Source of the DNA: a virus
IMG/VR virus record: IMGVR_UViG_3300031507_000003
Location: 1 to 57,886 of that record
DNA length: 57,886 nucleotides
Reading direction: 5' to 3' (one strand)
The position numbers and the translations under genes were made by a program. A model generated the notes under the pieces. The model did no database searches, was not told the origin of the DNA, and was given only the letters and a program-made list of their open reading frames with translations. Below are positions 10,345 to 57,886 of the stretch, piece by piece. Every line of letters starts with the position of its first letter. Position 1 is the first letter of the stretch.

Positions 10345-13300
10345 TCAGTCTTTGTAGCAGTCGGCCCACGTGCGGCCGGCGGGGCTGCGCCCCCACGTGA
10401 TCGCGACGCCCTTGAACTCCATCGTCATCGAGTCCAGGACCATGGCGCTGATCTCGTCCACCCGGTCCTCAGGGATGCTCATCACGATCTCATCGTGGAC
10501 GATCAGTCGAAGCAGCGGGATCAGCTCGGGATGCATTGCCTTCATCCGCAGCAGTCCCTCTGCCACGATGTCCCTGGTGCAGGACTGACCGATCAGTGCC
10601 GGAGCCTGGGTGTACTCACGTCCCGGCTCGCACCGCAGGCGCCGGCCGAAACCGTTGTCGAGCAACTGACCCGACTCCGCTTGGGTACGCACCTCGTTCT
10701 GCCACACCCTGACCCGCTCGAACTGCTCGTACATCGATGCGTCCACCCGTTCGGCCGCTTCCCGCTCGATGCCGGGGGTGTTGGCCAGGCCGTTGACGGA
10801 CCGGCCGTAGAACCACCCCAGGTCACAGCTCTTGGCGTGGAACCGGTGCTTGCCCAGCGCGTCCCCGAACGCCATCACAGCGACCTCGCTGTGGATGTCG
10901 CGGTCCGGGTCGTTGACGATCGCGATCAGGTTCGGGTCCTGCGAGTGGGCCGCGACGCACCGGATGTCCACCTGGTTGGCGTCGAACGACACCACGACAT
11001 GTCCGGGCTCACCCAGCAGGTACTGGCGCTCACTGTCCTCGCCGTCCTTGGCCAGCACCGACAGGCCCGGCTCCTTCACCGACCAGCGGCCGGCACCCTG
11101 GAACGGCTCGAAGCGGGGGTGGACCCGGTCCCCGGCCACGCACCGCAGCAGGTTCGCCGCGTTGTTGCGCAGCCCGTTCATCTCCGAGACGGCCCGGATG
11201 ACCGACGCCGCTCCCTCGTTCCCGGTCTTCTCCGCGTGGGCCAGGGCGAACGCCATGATCTCCTTGCCGAGCGAGAGCGATCCGTCCTTGCCCCGGGTCC
11301 AGCGCGCCAGCGGGAAACCGGCCGCGGACAGAGCAGCCTCGAACGCGGCCTTGCCCGCCGTGGTGCGCTGCGGGGCCTTCGCCGGCTTGCCCTGACCGTT
11401 GACGAGCGGGAAGCCGTACGTGCCCGACAGCAGCTCCTTGCCCGCTGCCGACTCCGCGTCCAGCTCCGCGACACGGGTGGTGAGTCCGGGAACGTCCACC
11501 CGGAAGCCGCTGAGCGTGGCGCGCGCCGTAACGGCAGCGACCTCCATCTCACGCCGGTCGTAGTCGGTCTGCGGGATCACCTGGGCCAGACGCAGCGCCA
11601 GTGACACATCGTCCCGGCAGTACGCGACGTACCGGGGGTCGTCCACCGGGATGGACCCCCATCCGCCGAACTCCTTCGCAAGCAGCTTCCCGTCGGGTGA
11701 CTTCTCGCCGTCCAGGTACCGGTGCGCCAGCGCGTCCAGCGAGTAGCTCTTGAACATCGGGCCGGGTTTGGTCTGCGCGCTGGACGGGGGGTCGAGCTGG
11801 AACGCGGCGAACCGGAGATCGTGGGCCCGGGGGATCGTGTCCTCCACCGGAAGCCCCAGGTGCCTGTCTGCGGCGATCAGATCGAAGAGTGCGAGGTTGT
11901 GGCCAACCAGGGTCCCGGAGGCCGTCAGAGGGGCGCACAGGGCCGTGTCGGGGGTAACGGTGACGTTGTCCTCGGTCCCGGCTCCGACCAGACGGACGAA
12001 CTCACCGGCAGGGTGGGTGAACAGATCGGCCGCGTCGTAGGTCTCCAGATCGAACCCGGTCAGGGTGTTCGTCACGCTCTGTGACACAGGGCCCGGAGTG
12101 GGCTCTGGAGTGGACGGTGTCAGGAGTGTGGGCATCGCCCCTTCTAGGCCATGTCTCTGTGACTGAGCCCCCTTTTCTTCATGATCATTAAGCTTTGATT
12201 CCCGCACGTATGGCCTAGAAGGAGAGATCACGACACTCGTCACTCCGTCCGCACCCCCCATAGCGGTACCCTCTTCCCCATCCTCGGGCGAAACGGACAG
12301 GTGCGGTGTGGATTCCGGCGGTGTGGGGTTCGCTCCCGGTGTGACATTGAGGCCCACGTTCTTGTTCTCGTTCCGGAGCCTCACCTCCCCGACCCCGTTC
12401 ACGCTCCGCAACCGTTCGATGAACTTGCGACTCGACATAGGTGCGGACGAATCCTCATCCTTCGCCCACGTCTTGAACATCTCGTGCAAAGTGGACTTCT
12501 TGGTTCCCTGCTCCGGGCCGACCAGCTTCCCGGCCGCGTCCGCATGAACGGTGCACTTCTCGCTCACCCACAGGGCGACCCGGTCGCTGCGGGTCTCGAA
12601 CTCCCGCATCACCCGCGGGTCCGTCGGCAGGTACCCCCCACGGGCCGTGTACCGCTGCCACGCGGCCACCCAGCGCACCAGGATCCCCGGCAGCTCCGCC
12701 ATGATCCGGTCCTCGATGGAGGGGTCCTCCCGGCCGGCGAAGGTGAAAGGGAACTCGAACGGCTTGATCCGGTTGGCGTACGCGCGGGACGCCTCGCTCA
12801 CCGTGGGCAGCTCGTTCGCAGAGAACGCGAACAGCGCCTGGTTGGTGAACTGGAACTCCTTGCCGTACTTGCGGTTGGCGTGGATCACGTCCTCGCCGGT
12901 CAGCATCTTGAACGTGGCCAGGTTCGTGACGTGCTTGGCCTCCAGCTCAGCAGCCACGTTCAGCATGCGCTGGTAGAGGTTGGCGGCCGCGAACTTGTCG
13001 TCACCGAGCTGGTGCAGCGTCACCGCGCTGTGGTTCTCAGGCCCCGTCGCAGCGGCCATGATCCGCAGGTACGTGGACTTGCCCGAGTGCGACGGCCCGA
13101 ACAGGAATACGGCCTTTCCCGGGGTGCGGGACGGGTCCAGCATCAGGGACACGGACTCTTCCAGGTCATCGATCTGGAAGCCGGGCAGCACCGTGGCCAG
13201 CCAGGCCTCGTACTGAGGACAGGTGGCGGCCGGGTCCCAGGCGATGGTGATCTGGGCGGTGGACAGGTACTTCGGGTCGTGCGGGTGCAGCTCCCCGGTG

Positions 13301-14403
13301 CGCAGGTCCAGCATCCCGTTCCGGCAGTTGAGCACCGGTTCCGGCATGCGCTCGGGAAGCCGCACGTCGTCCATGGCCAGACGCCCGATCAGCACCTCTT
13401 CGATCGTCGTGCGCCAGGCGGGGCGGTACTCCTCCCCCAGCTTGTCCTGGACGGCCGCGAAGAGCTGTTCCCGCCCGCGGTCCAGGACGTACCTGCCGTC
13501 CCGGTACAGCGCCACCATGGACCCGTGCGCCAGCGCCGCGGGCTGGCCTTCCAGCACCGCTGACGCGGCGGTCTGCGCGAGCAGCGACCCTTTCTCGTTG
13601 AACAGGGATGCCGCGTCCCCGGAGACCTTCCGTGCCGGCGCCCGGCTCAGCGTCTTCTTCGCCGCGTCACAGACCCGGCGCAGGTACGGGGTCCGCTTGT
13701 CCGGCTCGCGACGGCCCAGGACATCGTCCAGCCCCTCCTTGGCCTTCGCTCCGGCCAGCGACGCGAAGCGCACCGAGGCTGCGCCCTCCGCGTCCAGCGC
13801 CTCCTTCAGCCCGGTCGCCGCTTCCCACACGTCCCGGTTGTGGGACACGTCCGCGTCGAACAGGCAGACGACGTCCCGGTCCTCGGCCCAGGACAGGTCC
13901 GTACCGGTCCAGTTCTGGCACCCGGGCACGGCAACCACTCCCCACCCGTCCGGGGCCCACACAGCGGCAGCCAGGCCCTGCTTGGTACCCTCCACGAACA
14001 GCACCGGATCGCTGGCGCTCTCCGGGGCCCGCAGGTGCCCGAGGAACGTCCCGCACCCGCCGGGGAAGATGTACTTGTGCGGGGTCTCCTTGCCGGTGGC
14101 GGGGTCCTTGTCCATCACCGGGATGTCCGGGCGGAACTGGGTCACGGTCCGGTCCCCGTCGCGCCACTCGAACAGCATGCCGGGACTCTTCACCCAGCGG
14201 CGGTGGATGTCGTCCGGCACATGGTCGGGGTGCCGCACCGAGCGCACCCCATACCGCAGCGCCTCCGCGATCGGGATCCCGCCGGAGTCCAGCAGCGCCA
14301 GGGAGGCAGGGGTGAACTCCGTGCCGAACGCGTCCATCACCCGCTCGGTCGCCTGTTCGGCCGTACCTGCCGGGGACCCGTTGGATTCGATAACATCGGT
14401 CAT
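10345..14403 (-). CDS. Fused TOPRIM primase - SF3 helicase - DNA polymerase I
   Basis: A single 1352-aa protein with a whole replication enzyme set. Residues about 1-330 hold a primase-like N terminus with a TOPRIM-type module (LFVEGTKQ and CLFDADVS supply the acidic residues). Residues about 330-690 are a D5/P4-type SF3 helicase with Walker A GPSHSGKST near 435. A low-complexity linker (about 700-775) follows. A 3'-5' exonuclease starts with TGFDLETYD near 780. The C-terminal third is an A-family polymerase: motif A VVSFDANQVDIR, motif B around HRFHAKSCDLGWFYG, motif C IVHDE. Start chosen at ATG 14403 after GAGCGAGAG; a GTG at 14442 is possible. The gene has no frame interruption. The linker DNA carries origin-like repeats (see repeat at 12097). 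Confidence 0.88.
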   Translation of the reverse strand: MTDVIESNGSPAGTAEQATERVMDAFGTEFTPASLALLDSGGIPIAEALRYGVRSVRHPDHVPDDIHRRWVKSPGMLFEWRDGDRTVTQFRPDIPVMDKDPATGKETPHKYIFPGGCGTFLGHLRAPESASDPVLFVEGTKQGLAAAVWAPDGWGVVAVPGCQNWTGTDLSWAEDRDVVCLFDADVSHNRDVWEAATGLKEALDAEGAASVRFASLAGAKAKEGLDDVLGRREPDKRTPYLRRVCDAAKKTLSRAPARKVSGDAASLFNEKGSLLAQTAASAVLEGQPAALAHGSMVALYRDGRYVLDRGREQLFAAVQDKLGEEYRPAWRTTIEEVLIGRLAMDDVRLPERMPEPVLNCRNGMLDLRTGELHPHDPKYLSTAQITIAWDPAATCPQYEAWLATVLPGFQIDDLEESVSLMLDPSRTPGKAVFLFGPSHSGKSTYLRIMAAATGPENHSAVTLHQLGDDKFAAANLYQRMLNVAAELEAKHVTNLATFKMLTGEDVIHANRKYGKEFQFTNQALFAFSANELPTVSEASRAYANRIKPFEFPFTFAGREDPSIEDRIMAELPGILVRWVAAWQRYTARGGYLPTDPRVMREFETRSDRVALWVSEKCTVHADAAGKLVGPEQGTKKSTLHEMFKTWAKDEDSSAPMSSRKFIERLRSVNGVGEVRLRNENKNVGLNVTPGANPTPPESTPHLSVSPEDGEEGTAMGGADGVTSVVISPSRPYVRESKLNDHEEKGAQSQRHGLEGAMPTLLTPSTPEPTPGPVSQSVTNTLTGFDLETYDAADLFTHPAGEFVRLVGAGTEDNVTVTPDTALCAPLTASGTLVGHNLALFDLIAADRHLGLPVEDTIPRAHDLRFAAFQLDPPSSAQTKPGPMFKSYSLDALAHRYLDGEKSPDGKLLAKEFGGWGSIPVDDPRYVAYCRDDVSLALRLAQVIPQTDYDRREMEVAAVTARATLSGFRVDVPGLTTRVAELDAESAAGKELLSGTYGFPLVNGQGKPAKAPQRTTAGKAAFEAALSAAGFPLARWTRGKDGSLSLGKEIMAFALAHAEKTGNEGAASVIRAVSEMNGLRNNAANLLRCVAGDRVHPRFEPFQGAGRWSVKEPGLSVLAKDGEDSERQYLLGEPGHVVVSFDANQVDIRCVAAHSQDPNLIAIVNDPDRDIHSEVAVMAFGDALGKHRFHAKSCDLGWFYGRSVNGLANTPGIEREAAERVDASMYEQFERVRVWQNEVRTQAESGQLLDNGFGRRLRCEPGREYTQAPALIGQSCTRDIVAEGLLRMKAMHPELIPLLRLIVHDEIVMSIPEDRVDEISAMVLDSMTMEFKGVAITWGRSPAGRTWADCYKD
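12097..12342. repeat. Iteron-like repeats and 13-bp inverted repeat within the replication fusion gene
   Basis: The linker-coding DNA has GGAGTG words in direct order (12097-12133), CACTC words in the opposite order (12231-12250) and GGTGTGGATTCCG plus TCCGGCGGTGTGGGGT at 12305-12329. A perfect 13-bp inverted repeat, CCTTCTAGGCCAT, lies at 12140-12152 and 12210-12222 around a 57-base AT-richer loop. The words at 12201-12213 and 12305-12329 recur exactly at 45062-45139. Confidence 0.7.
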
Positions 14404-14503
14404 GGCGACTCGCTCTCGCTCGTGCCCCCGGCGCCGGCCCACGGCTTCCGGGGGTTTCGCATGTTCACTTGGGTGGGTTGAGAGTAGACCACACTGCCCA
14501 CAC

Positions 14504-14764
14504 TCATAGACACGGGATCACCCCCAGAAGACGGTCCGTACTGTCGTACTGGACCACGGCCCTGCGGTTGTCCAGCATGGTCTGGAAGCGGCTCCACCGG
14601 CCGTTCCGGTACAGGCCGGACGGCTCCAGGACGATGACCCGGGGCTGGTCCACTGCACGCAACTGTTCGGGTTCGAGAATGATGCGGCAGGTCCGTGGGT
14701 CCAGCCCGGACAGGTTGGCGTAGTACCGCGCATTGTGCAGGGACCAGCCGATGAGATAGATCAC
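14504..14764 (-). CDS. Hypothetical protein
   Basis: An 86-aa protein starting at ATG 14764, overlapping the nuclease stop. Predicted mixed alpha/beta. The sequence PRVIVLEPSGLYRNGRW has no family I recognise. It is co-transcribed with the nuclease and replication fusion. Two CACACT words at 14498-14516, just beyond its stop, resemble the iterons at 45 kb. Confidence 0.5.
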   Translation of the reverse strand: MIYLIGWSLHNARYYANLSGLDPRTCRIILEPEQLRAVDQPRVIVLEPSGLYRNGRWSRFQTMLDNRRAVVQYDSTDRLLGVIPCL

Positions 14765-22586: not shown

Positions 22587-22603
22587 TGTGGTTTAATTAA
22601 AGG
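22587..22603 (+). promoter_or_regulatory. TTTAATTAAA-type element upstream of the C5 methyltransferase
   Basis: TGTGGTTTAATTAAAGG contains the perfect core palindrome TTTAATTAAA and lies about 10 bp upstream of the purine-rich leader and GACGGAGGAACGATG. Confidence 0.6.
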
Positions 22604-24931: not shown

Positions 24932-25056
<125 letters not shown>

Positions 25057-27435: not shown

Positions 27436-29166
27436 ATGGACTACGGGGCATCCACAGCGGTTCCGGCGCAGCCGGTCACCGAGCAGCAGCCGGACAGCGG
27501 GATCAGCGCGGGAGGGGTGTTCACCCTCGTTGTCGCGGTCGGGATCGCGGTGGCGGTGAAGTGGACTGGGCGCCGGGGGAAGACCGTTGCGCAGGACCGG
27601 CCGAAGCAGGGAAAGAAGCACCGGAAGGACTCCGGAAGCGCCCCGGAAGCGCTGCCGGTCGTCGGCATGGAGCAGCTCCGAGGGGATGCTCCTGTGCCGG
27701 TCCTGGAAAAGGCGACGGAAAAGGGATCATCCCTGATGGACGGACCCCGGGCAAAGCTGCTCGCGCACAAGCTCGGTATCCCGCAGGCCCTGGCCCAGCG
27801 GCTCCAGAAGGAATCCTGGTCCGCGATGTGCCGTAATCGGGGACTGGCCGGACTGGAGCGCGGCGATATGGAAGCGACCCCGTACGGCGTGGCCGTTCAT
27901 GTGGAATTCCGGGGGCGCCTGGACTTCGCCGCGGTACAGCGGGGCGTGGACCAGATCGAAACCGGGCTCGACGTGCTGACCGGCACGATCCGCCTGCGCA
28001 AGGGGGCCACCGCCGGCCGCGGCATCGTGGACGTACGGCTGAGGGACCCGCTGGAAGGCGGGGTGCCGTGGGAGGCTCCGGCCGTCCCGGTCCGCCTGGC
28101 GCACCCGCTGCGCCTGGCGGTGACCGCGTTCGGGGACACGGTGGAGGTGAGCCTGAAGCAGCGTCTCGGAGTCTTCGGCACGTCGGGTTCCGGGAAGTCG
28201 TGCGCTCAGCGGCTGATCGGGGCGCACGTCGCGGCGGCGATCGATGCCGAGATGGACGTCTGGGACTTCAAGCACGGGGTGGAGTCCCAGCACTACGCGG
28301 GCAAGGCGCATCGGGTGACCTCGATTGATGCGGCGGTGTCCCGGGTGGACTGGTTGCTGGAGACCGAGTTCCCGCGGCGCGCGGCGAAGATGAAGGAGCG
28401 GGGCGTCTCCGAATGGCTGGAGACCCCGTGGGACCCGGCACTGGTCATCGTGGTCGATGAGGGCAATGCCCTGGTCCGTGGCTTCGGGGAGTGGCGCGAG
28501 GAAGCGGAGGAAGAGGGAGGGAAGGCCGGCGCGAAGGGTGCCCCGCTCAAGCGGCTGTTCACCGCGGTGGAACAGGGCCGTGCGCTCGGCGTGTACTGGG
28601 TGTGGGCTACCCAGTTCCCGAAGGCCGCTTCGCTCCCGACCGAGATCCGGTCCCAGCTCAACGCCACGGTGTGCATGAAGCTGCGCACCGACGGGGAAGC
28701 GCGCGTGGTCTTCGGCGACGACAACGTATCCGCCGGCTGGGCTCCGCAGGATCTGTACGGCCCCGGCTGGCTGCTGGTCCAGGACGACACGCACACCGAA
28801 CCGGTGGACGCGAAGGCTGTCTGGCTGTCCGTGGACAGCTTCCGGTCCCTGTCCGCCTCTGTCCCGGACACGGACAGGACAGCGATGCCTGTCCGGACAG
28901 CGGGACAGTCCCTGTCCTCCGGCGGTCCTGTCCCGGCTCCTGTCCTGTCCGCTGTCCCGGACAGGACAGCGTCCACGGTGTCCCTGGACATCTGGACTGT
29001 CCTGCTGCTGTCCGAGGACAGTCTGTCCCTGTCCGAGCTGGCGGACAGGACAGGCCGGGCGAAGTCTTCGGTCCACGGCGCCCTGGCGAAGATGCTGGAG
29101 AAGAACGAGGTGGTCCGGGACGGGGATGACTACCGGCTGCGGGTGGCGGACACCGACTGCGGGTGA
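27436..29166 (+). CDS. FtsK/SpoIIIE-type DNA translocase (TraB-like)
   Basis: A 576-aa protein. One hydrophobic segment (about 25-43) anchors it. The RecA-like motor has Walker A GTSGSGKS (248-255) and Walker B LVIVVDEGN (336-344). Residues about 465-530 are low-complexity and encoded by DNA dense in GGACAG/CTGTCC. The last 50 residues (LSLSELADRTGRAKSSVHGAL) are a winged helix, like the gamma domain by which FtsK and TraB recognise short DNA repeats. In Streptomyces plasmids TraB moves double-stranded DNA between hyphae. Its job in a phage is inference: transfer of a plasmid-like prophage or DNA movement during infection. Confidence 0.82.
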   Translation: MDYGASTAVPAQPVTEQQPDSGISAGGVFTLVVAVGIAVAVKWTGRRGKTVAQDRPKQGKKHRKDSGSAPEALPVVGMEQLRGDAPVPVLEKATEKGSSLMDGPRAKLLAHKLGIPQALAQRLQKESWSAMCRNRGLAGLERGDMEATPYGVAVHVEFRGRLDFAAVQRGVDQIETGLDVLTGTIRLRKGATAGRGIVDVRLRDPLEGGVPWEAPAVPVRLAHPLRLAVTAFGDTVEVSLKQRLGVFGTSGSGKSCAQRLIGAHVAAAIDAEMDVWDFKHGVESQHYAGKAHRVTSIDAAVSRVDWLLETEFPRRAAKMKERGVSEWLETPWDPALVIVVDEGNALVRGFGEWREEAEEEGGKAGAKGAPLKRLFTAVEQGRALGVYWVWATQFPKAASLPTEIRSQLNATVCMKLRTDGEARVVFGDDNVSAGWAPQDLYGPGWLLVQDDTHTEPVDAKAVWLSVDSFRSLSASVPDTDRTAMPVRTAGQSLSSGGPVPAPVLSAVPDRTASTVSLDIWTVLLLSEDSLSLSELADRTGRAKSSVHGALAKMLEKNEVVRDGDDYRLRVADTDCG

Positions 29167-44297: not shown

Positions 44298-44982
44298 AGG
44301 CTCACCCCCATCGCCTTGAGGAAGGAGTCCGACGCGTCTTCCTCATCGGTCCACCACCACGGTGCCTTCGGGTCACGCTGCTTCACGCGCTTCGGGCCGG
44401 AGCCGGGCACGGCCCAGCCGGCCACGGACAGCATGCTGTCCAGGACCTTACGCGCGTCCTCCGCGCTCTGGCCTTCGTGTACCCGCACCCGCTGGAGCAT
44501 CTCGGCGTAGACCAGGTTCAGGAACCGGTCGGCAGGAAGGTAGGCGAAATCGGTACCGGCTGCTGCGGAGCGTCCGTCGAGTTCGTGCCAGATGCCGGGT
44601 TGCCGGACCCACCCGCAGAGTTCGAGGACGGCTGTGTAGGGCGCAGCCCGTACTTCTCCAGCAGCCAGATCATGACCTCGCTGGCCTGCTCCAGCTCGAT
44701 CGGGTTCTCCAGGTCCCCCAGCCGCTTGGACACCGCCGCGGCGGAGTCGGGGAGCAGCACCAGCCCGAGCGCGTCCAGGATCGCGTCCACCTGGGCGTTG
44801 ACCGGCATGGCGCCGATCTTCTCGAAGCGGGTGGCGAACTCCGTCAGCGTTTTGCCGGGCAGTGCCCGCGCCGCTTCGAACAGGTCCCCGTCGATGCGGA
44901 ACCTGATCCGTTCGTGCGCTCGGGTGAAGTCCTTCACCCCGTCGTCTGTGGACCCGGTCAGCGGGCCCGTGCTCTCGCTCAT
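44294..44982 (-). CDS. Tail assembly chaperone, frameshifted product
   Basis: The -1 frame of this region stays open past the stop of the shorter gene (44518) and runs to 44294, continuing ...CGWVRQPGIWHELDGRS to DASDSFLKAMGVSL. This is the usual arrangement of siphovirus tail chaperones (gpG/gpGT). The frames are related as -1 (codon starts of class 0 then class 1). I could not identify a canonical slippery heptamer, so the join point is not known. Coordinates give the span from first start to second stop. Confidence 0.7.
44518..44982 (-). CDS. Tail assembly chaperone
   Basis: A 154-aa protein starting at ATG 44982 (MSESTGPLTG). Helical core (DFTRAHERIRFRIDGDLFEA, VNAQVDAILDALGLVLLP) with a Ser/Pro/Thr-rich C terminus. 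It wraps the tape measure protein during tail assembly together with its frameshifted longer form. Located directly upstream of the tape measure gene. Confidence 0.75.
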   Translation of the reverse strand: MSESTGPLTGSTDDGVKDFTRAHERIRFRIDGDLFEAARALPGKTLTEFATRFEKIGAMPVNAQVDAILDALGLVLLPDSAAAVSKRLGDLENPIELEQASEVMIWLLEKYGLRPTQPSSNSAGGSGNPASGTNSTDAPQQPVPISPTFLPTGS

Positions 44983-45047
44983 GGAGCCACCGTAGGGGAC
45001 TGCGGGAGAGATCTTGACCGGGCCGGATTCCGTCACGGTCGGTGAGA

Positions 45048-45320
45048 GTGTGGGGCCCGAGTCCGGCGGTGTGGGGTGTGGATTCCGTTGCCCACACTCC
45101 GGCATTTAGGGACACACCGGGTTACACCCGCACGTATGGACGGACAAACGGGGCGGAATCGTTTCCTCCGGTGTGAGGTTGGGTGTGGAGTGTGGGGTAC
45201 CACCCCTCGTCCTATGCGTTTGGGAGTGAAGGGAAGTTGATCATGGAAATAGCTCTGTTGAGTGCCAAAGGCATGGCGGCGAAAGGGCGATCCCCACACT
45301 CCTCACTCCGAAAACACTCC
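45048..45320. repeat. GTGTGGGG iterons in both orientations, candidate origin or operator array
   Basis: In the gene-free stretch 44983-45418 the words GTGTGGGG or GTGTGG occur at 45048, 45069, 45076, 45183 and 45190, and their complements at 45091 and 45292, with more CACTCC words to 45320. GGAGTGTGGGG (45187-45197) and CCCCACACTCC (45292-45302) form an 11-bp inverted pair around an AT-richer centre (45235-45270). The words TCCGGCGGTGTGGGGT, GGTGTGGATTCCG and CCCGCACGTATGG also occur in the replication fusion gene. No gene is evident here. Confidence 0.75.
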
Positions 45321-45380
45321 CGCAGGTCAGCCCGGTCTGATTCCCCGCTACGCTCCGTTACTGGTTTCCGGGCTTGATCC

Positions 45381-57057: not shown

Positions 57058-57886
57058 AGGGTCACGCTCCGGGTGACCCTGTGACCGGACACGTCCTTGT
57101 GCGGGGCCCGGTCGCCGACCCGGAACCGGCCGAACGCGTCCAGGGTGCATTCGTACAGCCCCGGGGTCCCGGGGTAGGCCATGGACTTCAGGGACAGCGC
57201 ACCCTGGGTGAACGGGCAGGAGTACGTGTGCTGGTCGCACGCGGCCGGGTGCAGCAGCTCCCACCCGGCCATCCCGAAGCGGACCGCGTGCACAGCGCGC
57301 GCCTGCCGGATGAGCCGCTCGGCGCGCGCCTGCGCCGCTGCCGGGGTGGTGTCGGGCACCGGGGCCGCTTCGTTCCCGTTGGGCGGTCCGTTAACGGGTA
57401 CGGGAGCCGGTGCGGTGTCCGGGGCAGGAACCGGTACTGGGGGCGCGGCCGCCGGCGGAGTCTCCAGCGTTGTCCCGGTCAGTTCCTTCAGCGCGGTCAG
57501 GGCCTCGGCAGGGATCGTACGCAGGATCAGCTTCAGGGACTGGTCCAGCAGGTCCTCCCCGGTCGGCTTGTCCGCCTCGTCGAATCCGGTCTCCCGGCGC
57601 AGCGCAGCGCCGGACAGTTCCTGCCGGTCGTAGGCCAGTACGGCGTTACCGCTGCGGTCCGGGCGCTGGGTCAGCTCGGACATGTCGTACCAGACCACGA
57701 ACCGGCCCACGTCCTGCTCTCCGCCCGCGGCCAGCCGGGGCTGGAGATAGGCCGTGGTGACCGCGCTGGCGATGAGTTCGGCGTCCGGGGCGATCGTCGT
57801 CTTGAGCGCGCTCTCTTCGATCTGCCAGGCGCCCCAGTGATTCACGTCACCCATGCCGAGCAGGACTTCGGCCGGGATGTTCACCT
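57054..57886 (-). CDS. Portal protein, C-terminal part (continuation of 1-1072)
   Basis: This frame enters from the right edge without a start and ends at 57054. It reads MNIPAEVLLGMGDVNHWGAW at the edge, a segment also covered at 1-117. It adds a basic, proline-rich region (about residues 450-500 of the whole protein) and ends GHRVTRSVTL. The join gives a 595-aa portal. Its stop overlaps the GTG of the MuF fusion gene by three bases. Confidence 0.85.
   Translation of the reverse strand, partial: VNIPAEVLLGMGDVNHWGAWQIEESALKTTIAPDAELIASAVTTAYLQPRLAAGGEQDVGRFVVWYDMSELTQRPDRSGNAVLAYDRQELSGAALRRETGFDEADKPTGEDLLDQSLKLILRTIPAEALTALKELTGTTLETPPAAAPPVPVPAPDTAPAPVPVNGPPNGNEAAPVPDTTPAAAQARAERLIRQARAVHAVRFGMAGWELLHPAACDQHTYSCPFTQGALSLKSMAYPGTPGLYECTLDAFGRFRVGDRAPHKDVSGHRVTRSVTL
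57770..57886. repeat. Terminal overlap, copy 2
   Basis: This copy is identical to bases 1-117. See the copy at the start. The repeat lies inside the portal gene and the frames match. Confidence 0.95.

Follow-up and report, generated by a model that had tools for sequence, protein, structure and literature searches.

A candidate replication origin embedded in the primase-helicase-polymerase gene of a soil phage, with a second copy among the tail genes

Where does replication begin in phages that carry a D5-type replication module? To our knowledge, the origins of such phages are mostly unmapped. In phage P4, the alpha protein is a single primase-helicase with a C-terminal DNA-binding domain, and the ori and crr sites share iterons. 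The interaction of alpha with ori is discussed in PMC4234260, as are pRN1 and Bordetella phage BIP-1, in which a primase, an SF3 helicase and a C-terminal winged helix are followed, just downstream of the gene, by an inverted repeat of about 100 nt whose shape is conserved more than its sequence. The SaPI/PICI origins lie directly 3′ of pri-rep; in them an AT-rich region stands between two iteron sets, which the C-terminal domain of the helicase recognises (PMC6092414, PMC7581432). In lambda, the origin iterons lie inside the initiator gene O (PMC3985674).

The window, by which we mean the whole 57,886-bp stretch analysed here, holds a dyad element twice, about 33 kb apart: once within the primase-PolA ORF of a soil phage and once in an intergenic region among tail genes. 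We propose that these dyad repeats are probably an initiator-bound replication origin embedded in the initiator gene, together with a second, distal copy. The gene that holds the first copy (10345-14403, minus strand) encodes a fusion of primase, SF3 (D5-type) helicase, winged helix, linker and family A DNA polymerase (PolA); its ORF extends to 14442 from an upstream GTG, and gene calls in this analysis come from a simple ORF caller. The fusion matches Pfam families D5_N, DUF5906 and DNA_pol_A as well as PHROG DNA primase and DNA polymerase, and the nearest solved structure of the helicase is the SaPI5 primase-helicase, both by sequence (E=1e-17) and by fold (E=1e-12). AlphaFold2 predicts a winged helix at the helicase C-terminus (about residues 649-702; 12337-12498, minus strand; pLDDT about 85), which we regard as the candidate binder of the dyad element. 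Directly after it the model places the start of a disordered linker (about residues 705-800; 12043-12330, minus strand; pLDDT about 26), and this linker is encoded by the in-gene copy of the element.

The dyad unit is about 150 bp long and consists of inward-facing 9-bp GAGTGTGGG iterons, CCATACGTGYGGGACTC half-sites and an AT-richer GATCAT centre; read from the outside in, each half runs from the GAGTGTGGG iteron through a variable CCCTTCTAGG-like block and CCATACGTGYGGGACTC to the centre with GATCAT. The in-gene copy (12104-12257, no strand assigned) was identified by nhmmer on both strands, by its inverted repeat and by dyad symmetry beyond that of shuffled sequences. Its inverted iteron arms surround an AT-richer centre, with GATCAT at about 12181; exact word searches place a GAGTGTGGG iteron at 12124-12132 on the plus strand and, together with alignment of the copies, an inner half-site CCATACGTGCGGG, the word given as CCCGCACGTATGG in the earlier note, at 12201-12213 on the minus strand. 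The arms are 46 nt long, 78% complementary and 57 nt apart, and the 13-bp inverted repeat at 12140/12210 to which that note had drawn attention is real and forms their inner part. Of 75 positions, 41-50 pair in the linkers, where shuffled sequences reach maxima of 34-36. Among the distinct 60-bp GC minima of the window genome, the centre ranks second-lowest (0.43 vs 0.68). Dyad cores with inverted iterons have a GC content of 0.45-0.53 in genomes of 0.68 GC, the core of G015 not being AT-rich.

The distal copy (45167-45321, no strand assigned) is supported by nhmmer, by alignment with the in-gene copy and by a shared neighbourhood, and is flanked by a tail-region gene (44518-45036, minus strand) on one side and by small rightward genes on the other. 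With the linker alone as the query, nhmmer finds it at E=1.1e-9. In a self-comparison of the window the linker-distal pair scores 55.4 bits, where Markov controls do not exceed 38; leaving aside the repeat at the contig ends and a match of the GGACAG simple repeat, no long-range DNA similarity is stronger. An nhmmer model made from the two window copies finds both copies in G001, G002 and G006, and because of the dyad symmetry its scores are nearly equal on the two strands. The two-copy layout is thus present in four phages of one clade, and the distal copy lies in the same tail-gene neighbourhood where this was checked (window, G001 and G002). In the window and in G002 (L004), the linker region and the distal region are colinearly similar over about 115-150 bp, and the inward iterons, placed by their exact words, are 105-106 bp apart in the G002 linker and in the distal copies of both the window and G002. 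The distal centre is the fourth-lowest distinct 60-bp GC minimum in the window genome and the lowest or nearly lowest GC stretch in G001 and G006. Among the distal copies, that of G002 alone is clearly above shuffles for arm pairing. The model search found no second copy in G003, G004, G007 or G009, whose contigs may be fragments. The linker as query gave no match in a phage DNA collection, and the GC skew of the window tracks gene orientation and carries no origin signal of its own.

Exact GAGTGTGGG occurs six times in the 57,886 bp (12124, 14497, 45046, 45091, 45188 and 45293) and is confined to three places: the linker, the region upstream of the primase gene, and the 45-kb region. The earlier note held that exact words of the linker recur near 45 kb, and they do: CCCGCACGTATGG at 12201 and 45127, GGTGTGGATTCCG at 12305 and 45075, and TCCGGCGGTGTGGGGT at 12314 and 45062, with no further exact occurrence. 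What is repeated is larger than that note had drawn it, the common words being pieces of a dyad of about 150 bp. With a unit of 12104-12257 the words at 12305-12329 fall outside the dyad; they belong to extra GTGTGG-type words (12303-12344, plus strand) that lie beyond the dyad, within the ORF, and are common to 45062-45087. Accessory GTGTGG/CCACAC words and CCCGCACGTATGG also adjoin the distal dyad (45045-45139, no strand assigned). A third group of repeats, placed slightly further right in the earlier note, consists of two 9-bp iterons in tandem, CCACACTGCCCACACTCA, at about 14489-14506; on the minus strand it reads GAGTGTGGG CAGTGTGGT and lies upstream of the primase start. This pair, possibly an operator or a loading site, is kept in G001, G002 and G006, whose sequences further upstream differ. 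The approximately 100 bp upstream of the primase start (14430-14506) are nearly identical in four phages and diverge beyond. A repeated GTGGTTTANTTAA leader at 22588, 24633, 30041, 30570 and 45381, followed in some cases by GACGGAGGAACGATG and in one copy situated beside the distal dyad, is probably a phage promoter or leader class.

Among the relatives, most carry inverted tandem 9-bp iterons just 3′ of the helicase/winged-helix codons. The iterons are of the GTGTGGG type in the window, G001, G002, G003, G004, G006, G007, G009 and G017, the relatives of this type all being uncultured contigs, some incomplete, and of the GTGGCAG or GGGGCAG type in G011, G013, G014 (weakly), G015, L058, L061 and L065; G010 carries GTAGGCAG, L064 shows CCGGCAGTT-type words by eye, and G008 is uncertain. 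Iteron type tracks winged-helix type across these relatives, an agreement that is not independent proof, as both share ancestry. L058, L061 and L065 were examined after the pattern had been seen, and each has inverted tandem GTGGCAG iterons at the predicted spot. In these three and in G015 the primase ends 11-15 codons past the aligned helicase/winged-helix region and the element lies at or just after the stop, where it is essentially intergenic; in the other element-bearing relatives the reading frame continues across it. The core in GTGGCAG members, G015 among them, consists of alternating GC. An IMG/VR-wide scan with the bare pattern GAGTGTGGGN{85,110}CCCACACTC returned four stretches, three of them in this phage group: the two G002 copies, G017, which is the same primase-PolA locus and had been missed by protein searches, and one unrelated contig. 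The unrelated pattern match G018 has no shared genes. Comparison of the linker across relatives, as the earlier note had proposed, shows that the element is kept in most of them; the dyad is absent at the primase 3′ spot in the Woodruffviruses, G012 and G016.

Two other repeats stand apart from the dyads. The window begins and ends with a 117-bp direct repeat (1-117 and 57770-57886; 127 bp in G001), which fits an assembly that is complete and circular. A GGACAG tandem array at 24933-25055 (with 28860-29060) has 12-bp variants in G001 and G002; GGACAG/CTGTCC words crowd the 3′ part of an FtsK-like ORF (27436-29166) and 25.0-26.0 kb, a clustering that is kept in G001, G002 and G006 and that recalls repeat recognition by Streptomyces TraB-like translocases.

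How did an origin-like element come to lie within a reading frame? In the linker, codon positions 1 and 2 change at rates similar to that of position 3 and there is no codon periodicity; in the helicase, by contrast, the first two codon positions are nearly fixed. Selection on the linker coding stretch thus appears to fall on DNA rather than on protein. The earlier note suggested that the fusion may have come about when an origin or binding site between two genes was read through, a view that the relatives do not support. In G001, G002, G006, G007 and G009 the dyad already lies within the primase ORF, and PolA has a gene of its own. The window protein shares 99% identity with G002 in its helicase half; in its PolA half it shares 60-62% with the fused G003, G004 and G008 but 36% with G002. 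The junction, where the homology to G002 stops, is near residue 799 (about 12045), downstream of the dyad. Since the dyad is in-gene in unfused relatives and the PolA half belongs to another lineage, read-through was rejected, and the window fusion is best explained, on these comparisons, as a recombinant joined downstream of the element. An ORF may nonetheless have grown through the origin, as a C-terminal extension of the primase and not as a fusion event; this is possible because one clade has the element at or after the primase stop. In L004, the 93%-identical relative, small ORFs that look RHH-like and HNH-like by eye (12388-12872) separate the primase stop from a PolA that is different, at the recombination boundary.

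Could the dyads instead serve a phage regulator as operators or as other sites of transcription control, with the in-gene copy acting as a roadblock or surviving as a remnant? The distal copy does lie between a leftward and a rightward gene, beside the promoter-like GTGGTTTANTTAA leader, and the primase gene does have an iteron pair upstream. However, the copy that is conserved most widely is in the 3′ end of a gene and is tied to the helicase winged helix, other GTGGTTTANTTAA leaders in the window have no dyad match, and a low-GC centre with paired inward iterons fits initiator sites better. We therefore judge operators unlikely, while giving them more weight than any other alternative. A functionless duplicated fragment, or a low-complexity coincidence, seems very improbable: CCACACC-rich DNA encodes Pro/Thr-rich linkers, so that similar words could recur, but against it stand the two-copy layout with its dyad in four phages and inward iterons 105-106 bp apart where measurable, a bit score well above Markov controls, and a linker conserved without codon bias.

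Equally improbable, in our estimation, is an RNA hairpin in the mRNA that serves processing, control of PolA translation or termination. Arms of 46-50 nt that are 78-94% complementary, with loops of 57-58 nt, would form a hairpin that is strong in the coding orientation. Yet the arms pair no better with their own partners than when swapped (90 of 720 permutations among six non-redundant copies reach the observed value), G-T mismatches occur at the chance rate (16 of 96), and the distal copy is intergenic; on the arm-swap permutation and the mismatch rate, we rejected the hairpin. Because the arms follow the half-site consensus, we read them as protein half-sites. Finally, two similar dyads about 33 kb apart, and PolA modules exchanged near the linker, might bring to mind sites of site-specific recombination or dimer resolution. 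Most relatives show a single copy, however, and tyrosine integrase and serine resolvase families were not found in the window, G001, G002 or G006; with no cognate integrase or resolvase family found, an att or res site was rejected, and we consider it the least probable of the alternatives.

We propose the following for the initiator-bound origin. On either side of the centre, the winged helix at the C-terminus of the phage's SF3 primase-helicase would bind the inward 9-bp iterons together with the inner half-sites, so that two helicase rings could assemble face to face on the dyad and melt the AT-richer GATCAT centre. Bidirectional replication would then fire from the dyad, with the tethered or neighbouring PolA extending primers. 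Such an origin would directly follow the winged-helix codons and sit within the ORF, a place where it could be tolerated since the protein stretch it encodes is a disordered linker. A second site for the same protein may be provided by the distal copy at 45.2 kb, either as a second origin or as a helper like P4 crr, and the iteron pair upstream of the primase gene may give autoregulation. The low-GC centres, the two copies in four phages and the position of the predicted winged helix support an origin, while the restriction of the distal copy to one clade and the lack of the dyad at this spot in the Woodruffviruses and G012/G016 count against it. The earlier note's suggestion that origin-like, initiator-linked repeats occur at two sites appears to hold, as anatomy, conservation and comparison agree. 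A more ambitious version, in which the flexible linker of a primase-helicase-polymerase fusion is itself the replication origin, a single frame codes for initiator, helicase and polymerase and also holds the start site, another full copy of the origin among the tail genes fires or helps, and the in-gene origin is the seam at which polymerases are swapped, is tentative, and we would sooner doubt than assert it.

The locus offers a case in which selection on a coding stretch appears to act on DNA, not protein. The rule that inverted tandem 9-bp iterons stand just after the winged-helix codons foretold the element in further relatives, and the pairing of iteron with winged helix makes initiator-origin recognition testable across many actinobacterial phages.

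How does this locus compare with known systems? The Woodruffviruses (TP1604, phiSAJS1 and Mischief19) share with the window a homologous primase with PolA as neighbour, and large repeated dyads. Each genome has three intergenic dyads of about 300 bp, one of them upstream of the primase, but their cores are GC-alternating and none lies in the primase 3′ end; the dyads of TP1604 contain GTGGCAGAAGTGGGCAG. Across L030-L039 (TP1604, Mischief19 and phiSAJS1) there are palindromic elements with GCGCGC-type cores and a shared GCAGGTCA motif, and the parts of the Woodruffvirus/BG phage literature consulted mention neither repeats nor an origin. pRN1 is reported without iteron structure, whereas the iterons of the window are clear, and the base pairing of the pRN1/BIP-1 stem-loop has no counterpart in the window, where arms show no partner-specific covariation. 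As in lambda, the iterons lie within the initiator's own ORF; the O protein, however, is not a helicase, recruits DnaB through P and binds 19-bp direct repeats, whereas the window has inverted 9-bp sets in an SF3 helicase gene. The two separated copies of the element would parallel ori and crr of P4 if the candidate winged helix binds both; the in-gene position, dyad layout, 33-kb separation, PolA fusion and iteron sequence all differ. The SaPI/PICI origins share with the window a homologous D5/SF3 primase-helicase as initiator and, at the 3′ end of the initiator gene, an AT-richer centre between two sets of iterons. There the origin is immediately 3′ of the gene, a location seen here only in G015, L058, L061 and L065, whereas the element of the window lies within the ORF and codes for the PolA linker; the window also has a second copy 33 kb away and belongs to a phage with structural genes, not to a satellite island. 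Taken with the SaPI5 homology, the SaPI/PICI, pRN1/BIP-1 and lambda parallels point to an initiator-bound origin at the in-gene copy, and by analogy we suggest that the element works like a SaPI/PICI-type origin rather than being filed as a strict member of that class.
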